Origin: Planctomycetota bacterium
GTDB taxonomy: Bacteria > Planctomycetota > J058
Assembly: GCA_020425635.1 (NCBI GenBank)
Contig: JAGQRJ010000691.1
Coordinates: 1 to 34,910, forward strand
DNA: 34,910 bases
Reading direction: 5' to 3'
The position numbers and the translations under genes are program-made. The notes beneath the pieces are model-generated. The model ran no database searches. It saw nothing but the letters and a program-made list of their open reading frames with translations, and had not been told where the DNA came from. Of this stretch, positions 25,542-29,868 are shown piece after piece. Every line of letters starts with the position of its first letter. Position 1 is the first letter of the stretch.

Positions 25542-26534
25542 ATGGGCAAGGGACGACAGGGGAGCCGGGCGAAGGGGACACGCCCAAGCAAGCCCAAGGC
25601 GAAGCCCAAGCCCAAGCCCAAGCCCAAGCCCAAGCCCAAGCCCAAGCCGCTCAGCCCGCCTGCCGCCGCGGCGGGCCCTACGGCGCTCGCGCCCTCCCCC
25701 CCAAGCTTCACGCCGATCCTCGACGGATCGGGCTCGCACGGGCCCCTGCCGGAGACGCGCCGGCTGAGCCGCAAGAACTACGAAATGGAGCTGCGCCATC
25801 TGCAGATCGAGCTGGTCAAGCTCCAGGAGTGGGTCCGGCACAAGGGGCTGCGCGTGGTCGTCCTCTTCGAAGGCCGCGACGCCGCGGGCAAGGGCGGGGT
25901 GATCAAGCGGATCACCCAGAGCCTCAGCCCGCGAATCTGCAAGGTGGTGGCCCTCGCAGCGCCCACGGAACGCGAGCGAACCCAGTGGTATTTCCAGCGC
26001 TACGTGGCCCACCTCCCCGCAGCAGGCGAGATCGTGCTCTTCGACCGCAGCTGGTACAACCGCGCGGGCGTCGAGCGGGTCATGGGCTTTTGTAACGAGA
26101 CCCAGCTGCGCGAGTTCATGCGCACCTGCCCAGAGTTCGAGCGCATGCTCGTGCGCTCTGGGATCCAGCTGATCAAGTATTGGTTCTCGGTGAGCGACGA
26201 GGTCCAGGAGCAGCGCTTCCAGGCGCGGATCGACGACCCCACCAAGCGCTGGAAGCTCAGCGAAATGGACCTCGCGAGCCGCGAGCGCTGGGTGGAGTTT
26301 TCGCGGGCGAAGGACGAAATGTTCCACTACACGGACATCAAGCAGGCCCCCTGGCACGTGGTGCGCGCGGACAACAAGAAGCGCGCCCGGCTCAACTGCA
26401 TTCACCACCTCCTGAGCATGATCCCCTACGAGGACCTGACCCCCGCGCCGGTCGAGCTCCCCCAGCGCGCCAACAACTCGGGCTACGTTCGCCCACCCAT
26501 GTCCGATCAGACCTTCGTGCCCGAGGTCTACTGA
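25542..26534 (+). CDS. ppk2: Polyphosphate kinase 2 family enzyme
   Basis: A 330-residue PPK2-family enzyme, transferring phosphate between inorganic polyphosphate and nucleotides. The catalytic core begins near residue 74. Walker A GRDAAGKGG is at 111-119, followed by the Walker B/lid-1 block FDRSWYNRAGVERVMGF from 167, then YWFSVSDEVQEQRFQAR and DPTKRWKLSEMD near the lid. The single core with this lid fits the long single-domain PPK2 type that mostly favours ADP or GDP as acceptor, but class assignment from motifs is uncertain. Unusually, residues 18-36 are a Lys-Pro run encoded by about eight AAGCCC units, followed by a Pro/Ala linker to about 70: a flexible basic tail that may bind polyphosphate or membranes. 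The ATG is set by GGGAGGGG. A small lipoyl-like gene starts 4 bp after its stop. Confidence 0.95.
   Translation: MGKGRQGSRAKGTRPSKPKAKPKPKPKPKPKPKPKPLSPPAAAAGPTALAPSPPSFTPILDGSGSHGPLPETRRLSRKNYEMELRHLQIELVKLQEWVRHKGLRVVVLFEGRDAAGKGGVIKRITQSLSPRICKVVALAAPTERERTQWYFQRYVAHLPAAGEIVLFDRSWYNRAGVERVMGFCNETQLREFMRTCPEFERMLVRSGIQLIKYWFSVSDEVQEQRFQARIDDPTKRWKLSEMDLASRERWVEFSRAKDEMFHYTDIKQAPWHVVRADNKKRARLNCIHHLLSMIPYEDLTPAPVELPQRANNSGYVRPPMSDQTFVPEVY
25602..25648. repeat. (AAGCCC)n hexanucleotide tandem repeat, about 7.8 copies
   Basis: Perfect 6-bp units in tandem inside ppk2, encoding alternating Lys-Pro. Being a multiple of three, copy-number change keeps the frame and only alters tail length. Confidence 0.9.
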
Positions 26535-28917: not shown

Positions 28918-28960
28918 CCTCCGCTCGGTCGCGGCTCGCGCGTTGCACACCGAGCGGAGG
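28918..28960 (+). promoter_or_regulatory. 12-bp perfect inverted repeat in the leader of the TGA-containing gene
   Basis: CCTCCGCTCGGT (28918-28929) and ACCGAGCGGAGG (28949-28960) enclose a 19-nt loop. The 3' arm contains one GGAGG, while a second GGAGG at 28963-28967, 7 nt before the ATG, remains free. It may be an operator or an mRNA hairpin modulating ribosome access. Confidence 0.5.
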
Positions 28961-28974
28961 ACGGAGGAGCTCGC

Positions 28975-29868
28975 ATGCACTGCAAGACGTGGATTTGGCT
29001 CGGGTGCGCCCTGATCGCAGGAGGAGGGACGGCCCTCGCCGCCCCCAAGCCGGAGTCGGCCGCCAAGGCGCTCGTGCGCGGGGCCAAGCAGCTCGCGCAG
29101 CTCAAGAGCTACCGGATCGAGTTCTCGGTCTCAGGGGGGCTCGCCAAGGGCGCGGACCACGCCCTGGTCGAGACGCGGGTCAACGAGAGCTGGACGGGCG
29201 CCGTCCGCGGCAAGGTCGTCCAATTGAACCAGGGCGAAGGCTTCCGCCTTCGCCGGGGTGAGTTCGAGGGAGCGATCCAAGACGGACTCCAGTGGAAGGC
29301 CCTGCTCGCGACCGACAAGGGCCGGCTCCTGGGCCGGCTGTTCAAGGACCCAGAAGCGACCCTCGCCCGCGCGCTGCGCTCGAAACGGCGGGCCACGTGG
29401 CTGGCCCCCGTCGCGGGCGCGAGCGCTGACGGGGCGCCTGCGCAGGCCGAGACCGAGGACGGCACCCGGAGCGGCTCCCGCGGAGCGAGCAGCGAGCTCG
29501 ACGAAGGCCCGCTGCCGACCGTGCTCGAGGTCGAGGGCCCGGCGATCGAGGCGATCCAGCACTTCGAACAGATCGTCTCCTCGGGCTGCTTCGCCGAAGG
29601 CTGAGGCGTCTCCGAATCCTTGTCCCGTGCGGACAAGACCCTCACCAAGATCGTCTACCGCGTGACCTTCGACGAAACCCGCCAACGCGTGACCGAGCTC
29701 CAGGTCACGACCCTCTGCGCCCAGAAGAACGGCCTGCAGTCGGTCGACCCGAAGGTGGCGTTCAGCTCCAACGAGCACATTGCCTTCGTCGCGACGTACC
29801 GCTTCTCCCAGGAAGACGCGGTCGAGATCTTCCCCGTCCCAGCGGCCGCAGGCAAACTGCTCAAGTAG
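28975..29868 (+). CDS. Secreted protein with in-frame TGA; candidate selenoprotein
   Basis: A 298-codon frame from ATG (Shine-Dalgarno GGAGG 7 nt upstream) to TAG, interrupted once by TGA at codon 210 (29602-29604). Residues 1-23 are a signal peptide (MHCKTW, hydrophobic core, cleavage near TALAA), so the product is exported. The body has strand-rich segments such as SYRIEFSVSGG and KIVYRVTFDET, loosely like periplasmic lipid- or lipoprotein-binding folds; the family is not recognised. Around the TGA the peptide is SSGCFAEG-stop-GVSESL: Cys205 lies five residues before position 210. After the TGA the frame keeps strong coding character for 87 codons and has no good start of its own (a TTG at 29620 only). 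A SECIS-like hairpin follows the TGA. Options are selenocysteine insertion, a recent nonsense mutation, readthrough or a sequencing error. If TGA stops, a 209-residue product results. Confidence 0.75.
29602..29644 (+). promoter_or_regulatory. Candidate bacterial SECIS hairpin at the in-frame TGA
   Basis: CTTGTCC (29619-29625) pairs perfectly with GGACAAG (29631-29637) around the loop CGTGC, whose second base is G. The loop begins 21 nt after the TGA. A lower stem TGAGG (29602-29606) with CCTCA (29640-29644) puts the TGA at its base, as in E. coli fdhF. The internal loop is asymmetric (12 against 2 nt), a weak point. Confidence 0.5.

Follow-up and report, generated by a model that had tools for sequence, protein, structure and literature searches.

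A probable new family of exported planctomycete selenoproteins with a predicted LolA/LprG-like fold

Prokaryotic selenoproteins were catalogued in May 2026 as 119 families and subfamilies (PMC13188914, Table 1), and most characterised selenoproteins are described as thioredoxin-like (PMC13188914). For bacterial SECIS elements (bSECIS), the current model comprises a loop of 3-9 nt on an upper stem of 4-16 bp with a minimum free energy of -7.5 kcal/mol or lower, a G in the first two loop bases followed by U or G, and a distance of 16-37 nt from the TGA (PMC13188914). The gene described here shares with the catalogued SelB/bSECIS selenoproteins an in-frame TGA, the bSECIS geometry, the Sec machinery of the genome, a redox-like motif and, to the extent of a single sequence with an insertion beside the site, a Cys homologue. 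It differs from them in that Cys homologues are nearly absent from its family, with one found.

The closest described proteins in terms of predicted fold are lipoprotein and lipid carriers. LolA (PDB 8cgm, 4mxt) resembles the protein studied here in its fold, in its probable export and in an N-terminal helix followed by a half-open barrel with helical segments. In contrast to LolA, our protein has no family match above cut-off, and its model contains a helical hairpin bearing Cys and Sec as well as a low-confidence linker (residues 149-176). The best fold match in the PDB was to the Mycobacterium proteins LprG, LppX and LprF (PDB 3mh9, 2byo, 4qa8), the known members of which have a lipid-binding cavity. 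These are lipoproteins without Sec, whereas no lipobox was seen by eye in our protein, and sequence identity amounts to only 10-14%.

Reading frame and SECIS hairpin

The window, i.e. the whole stretch of 34,910 nucleotides analysed, is contig C400 of a 7.46-Mb draft genome of an uncultured planctomycete that is 89% complete; the selenoprotein gene and its associated elements are located on the forward strand of the contig. The putative selenoprotein gene occupies positions 28975-29868. Its frame proved to be as claimed in the initial annotation: it opens with ATG at 28975, meets TGA at 29602-29604 (codon 210), continues through 87 sense codons and ends with TAG at 29866-29868, yielding 297 codons in total. 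The sequence GGAGGAG at 28963-28969 is the likely ribosome-binding site. As judged by eye, the first ~22 residues (28975-29040) form a probable export signal peptide with a cleavage site between MHCKTWIWLGCALIAGGGTALA and AP; a hydrophobic N-terminal stretch is also present in most homologues. A 12-bp perfect inverted repeat with a 19-nt spacer (28918-28929 with 28949-28960) lies just 5' of the start, separated from the ribosome-binding site by a few bases. It could be the terminator of the upstream kinase gene or a regulatory hairpin; a counterpart was not evident upstream of six close homologues checked. The window also contains an ORF at 25542-26534, named by eye as polyphosphate-kinase-2-like, whose N-terminal region contains a long Lys-Pro repeat (KPKPKPKPKPKPKPKPKP).

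Conservation within the family peaks inside the stretch formed by the downstream frame and the residues flanking the TGA. Wherever read, the TGA was situated inside the motif SGCxxGGU...LSRxDK, which takes the form S-[GN]-C-x-x-x-G-U-x-x-x-x-L-[SA]-[RSG]-x-[DE]-[KR] with small variations, and it was invariant among the Sec-bearing family members read. In comparison with five relatives, amino-acid identity rose from 41-50% upstream of the TGA to 47-64% downstream of it, which indicates that the part beyond the TGA is translated and subject to selection.

Downstream of the TGA, a 7-bp perfect stem with a 5-nt loop and a G as second loop base had been described at a spacing of 21 nt, and each of these elements was confirmed. 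The apical hairpin (29619-29637) consists of the stem 29619-29625/29631-29637 and the loop CGTGC (29626-29630), 21 nt after the TGA, and 36 distinct homologous sequences preserve both stem and loop. The 50-nt segment 29602-29651 folded with -15.7 kcal/mol (z = -2.2). Thus loop length, stem length, the G at position 2, the spacing and the folding energy all lie within the bSECIS model. The TGA itself had further been proposed to take part in a 5-bp lower stem (29602-29606/29640-29644, together spanning 29602-29644). This stem exists in the window and in the close homologues L083 and L085 and is absent from most others; it was rejected as a part of the SECIS element because it is not a conserved feature of the family.

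The 36 distinct 42-nt contexts were aligned without gaps. In the 7-bp stem, 96% of the 252 cells were paired, compared with 29-44% when the partners were slid by 1-3 columns. Sixteen stem cells were altered on both sides, a value as high as in none of 500 shuffles. Columns 19 and 35 pair as C-G in 17 sequences, as U-A in 15 and as U-G in two. At the codon level, Leu TTG stood opposite Lys AAG/AAA and CTG opposite Arg AGG/AGA (16/2 versus 1/18; Fisher p = 2e-7, with p-values for stem covariation being inflated by the relatedness of the sequences). Kinship alone does not seem to account for this covariation, given the slid control and its recurrence in several families. In one homologue (L012), a G-C pair of the stem has turned into C-G (CTC with GAG). 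All 36 contexts have G as their second loop base, though the encoded residue varies between Arg, Ser and Gly (CGT, CGG, AGT, AGG, GGT). Since TTG accounts for 5% of the Leu codons and CGT for 4% of the Arg codons in the genes of the window, codon choice at the hairpin seems best explained by RNA structure. Judging by these alignments, UGA 210 is kept as a sense codon with the downstream frame under protein-level selection, and compensatory and synonymous changes have preserved the SECIS hairpin that follows after 21 nt.

Distribution, Sec loss and Sec decoding

A profile search retrieved at least 51 homologous genes, a few of them cut by contig ends, from 36 of 392 sampled Planctomycetota genomes, each gene with exactly one in-frame TGA. 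When 58 relatives were searched with the read-through protein, 15 TGA-bearing genes including that of the window were found in 11 genomes, and TGA was the sole internal stop of each. The family was present in 25 of the 29 genomes of the class that includes G026, G053 and G254, and in all 16 genomes of this class with a completeness of 90% or more and a contamination of 5% or less. Within the window's own family, all seven genomes examined possess the selenoprotein gene; the window's genome has a second copy of the family on contig C424. The sensitive profile search was confined to Planctomycetota and the other phyla were covered by a single conserved peptide pattern; with this coverage, the family was found only in Planctomycetota. 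In the pattern scan of contigs from all phyla, the hits were titled Planctomycetota or Planctomycetes, apart from three unclassified bacteria and a single 'Bacillota bacterium' record (L092, QNYK01000097.1). The latter shows the same gene neighbourhood as the planctomycete records, and its label is probably wrong. A viral or plasmid origin was rejected, with no relative in viral_contigs or plasmids and no viral fold match at E 0.001.

The alignment at codon 210 showed TGA in every full-length relative except for one Cys homologue and the tandem paralogues without U. Trp, Gly or Arg never occurred at this position within an otherwise intact motif, nor did TAG or TAA in the contexts read. The Cys homologue (L063, G254:C234) is a single sequence with TGC in the U column after a short insertion beside the site, and is the sister of a Sec paralogue of the same genome in the tree. 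In family f20, U has been lost, and Cys in part, from seven tandem paralogues; their motif has drifted, and they are still homologous along their length. Tandem arrays of this family (L065, L066, L067, L068, L069 and L072, also L089, L093 and L097) combine Sec-bearing copies with a degenerate copy and represent a natural experiment in Sec loss. In the midpoint-rooted tree, which included two of the seven tandem paralogues, both on long branches, these two and L063 lie inside the Sec-bearing family. With these three TGA-free relatives nested in this way, the family looks ancestrally Sec-bearing.

A cysteine five residues upstream had been put forward as a partner of Sec. Cys205 (TGC, 29587-29589), its likely resolving partner in the arrangement C-x4-U, is nearly invariant apart from one subgroup, usually with a spacing of x4 and in a few members with x5. 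The suggestion does not extend to this subgroup (L090, L091, L092, L093), in which U is kept and Leu replaces Cys205. The motif here reads SGLLGGFSU, e.g. in L090 and L093, or SGLLGGSLU (Cys205-less loci L090:3742-4698, L092:4838-5710 and L093:3771-4727). Hence a Cys-Sec pair is not obligatory, and any resolving thiol must come from elsewhere in this subgroup.

The check for sel genes was positive, with selA, selB, selC and selD all present in the window's genome. SelA scored 437 bits, the tRNA-Sec has the anticodon TCA, and SelD contains an internal TGA in the sequence CGGU and is itself Sec-containing. Two SelB proteins exceeded the curated cut-off (L115, G000:C837:465-1544; L114, G000:C948:8689-9804). 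Two or more SelB-like genes were also observed in G006, G022, G029, G043 and G045; possibly, separate SelBs serve different SECIS types, or their C-termini have diverged. In each of the 11 carriers among the 58 relatives, SelB or tRNA-Sec scored above the curated threshold, and the gaps are those to be expected of draft assemblies; since the machinery is present in most of the 58, its co-occurrence with the gene is weak evidence when taken alone. With the machinery present, SelA and the Sec-containing SelD would supply Sec, and SelB carrying Sec-tRNA(UCA) would bind the hairpin and insert Sec.

On the strength of these sequence data, the gene very probably encodes an exported selenoprotein with Sec inserted at codon 210. 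The Sec at position 210 proposed in the initial annotation is thereby supported, and nothing that sequence can test refuted it. Programmed readthrough without Sec, by near-cognate insertion of Trp, Arg or another residue, would produce a short and a long form with the hairpin as stimulator. Hairpins 3' of a TGA can indeed stimulate readthrough as well, but the geometry fits the bSECIS model (PMC13188914), Sec machinery was present in every carrier tested, and the flanking C-x4-U motif is redox-like. Moreover, none of the contexts read has TAG, TAA or Trp in place of the TGA, and the one substitution in a non-degenerate copy is Cys, which leaves this explanation very improbable. That the TGA is an ordinary stop of a 209-residue protein, followed by a frame open by chance or a decayed remnant, has a negligible probability: TGA is a true stop elsewhere in these genomes and the normal C-terminal stop of some relatives, yet the downstream frame is conserved with an amino-acid identity of 47-64%, which rules out a pseudogene or stop, and a remnant with a TGA would not be expected 51 times over. 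An assembly error was rejected, as the same TGA occurs in dozens of independent genomes.

Predicted fold and possible function

The AlphaFold2 model, based on 22 sequences, reached a pLDDT of 84 and a pTM of 0.79. The best Foldseek matches in the PDB were LprG (E 3e-5) and Porphyromonas gingivalis LolA (E 1.7e-4), followed by LppX, with a probability of 1.0; further matches included LprF and lipid-binding barrels of the apoB/vitellogenin type. TM-scores to LolA and LprG were modest, with ~0.30-0.36 by query and 0.41-0.52 by target. According to the model, the mature protein is likely to be a LolA/LprG-like half-open beta-barrel with helices, a fold that accommodates a lipid or acyl chain in the known proteins. 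Searches of Pfam, NCBIfam and PDB sequences gave nothing convincing, including no Pfam LolA match. The best profile scores were obtained with NF053532 (E 1.5e-4, one member) and LolA1_Flavo (0.075, one member), neither above the curated cut-off. The description as a secreted protein of unknown family holds insofar as no known family matches, and can be narrowed down to a separate family whose predicted fold is LolA/LprG-like.

In the model, the helices 190-202 and 210-217 are located between the strands 183-187 and 219-232. Cys205 lies in the turn between these two helices and Sec210 starts the second one. A Sec that begins a helix and has a Cys close by is a usual redox arrangement, and GPX4 is a selenoprotein which reduces lipid peroxides. 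Tentatively, the protein may have a lipid-associated redox or peroxidase activity in the periplasm. Sec210 would attack a group that is oxidised or electrophilic; the most plausible target is a hydroperoxide, on a lipid or otherwise, and the alternative is a disulfide. Sec210 would then be regenerated via a Cys205-Sec210 selenenylsulfide. A still bolder and rather unlikely reading is that of a LolA/LprG-type barrel turned selenoenzyme, which would hold an acyl chain while Sec reduces a peroxide or oxidised group on it. The likeness to GPX4-like proteins is confined to the proposed chemistry, i.e. Sec acting on lipid-associated peroxides; fold and motif differ, and the comparison is one of analogy, not homology.

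A selenoprotein without a lipid redox task comes close to an even chance. For instance, it may be a lipoprotein carrier of a chaperone-like type whose Sec has a structural role or binds a metal(loid), or it may act in lipoprotein maturation as a thiol-disulfide partner. This would agree with fold matches that are carriers and not enzymes, and with U-less tandem paralogues that stay homologous along their length. It would also agree with a neighbourhood without a redox partner: no neighbour was common across the window's own family, no conserved gene neighbour pointing to a substrate was found, and family f20 showed local synteny only, e.g. with an ORF resembling valyl-tRNA synthetase (named by eye). 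On the other hand, the helix position of Sec next to a Cys and the drifted motif of the U-less paralogues favour a redox function, and among the selenoproteins characterised or predicted so far, many act in redox reactions or contain redox motifs (PMC13188914).

Novelty and significance

None of the 119 catalogued families is listed with an SGCxxGGU or C-x4-U motif or with a LolA/LprG-like description (PMC13188914), and the Pfam and NCBIfam models of the named catalogue families did not match the family of the window. No relevant paper in the open literature links a selenoprotein to LolA or a lipoprotein carrier; the text of the Porphyra planctomycete paper names other selenoproteins. We call this a new selenoprotein family in which the decoding system is known and the protein is new, with one catalogue and the open literature being no proof of priority. 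As far as these two sources show, the predicted LolA-like fold would be new for a selenoprotein.

Gene finders based on Cys homologues would tend to miss the family, and standard annotation truncates the gene. As the authors of deep-Sep note, their method may fail to identify families without Cys homologues correctly (deep-Sep paper). If the reading as a selenoenzyme barrel is true, Sec occurs in a fold in which it was previously not known, almost without Cys counterparts. The finding, if true, extends the known selenoproteins by a family whose fold resembles that of lipid carriers, and suggests a use of Sec in reactions at or on the lipids of the bacterial envelope.
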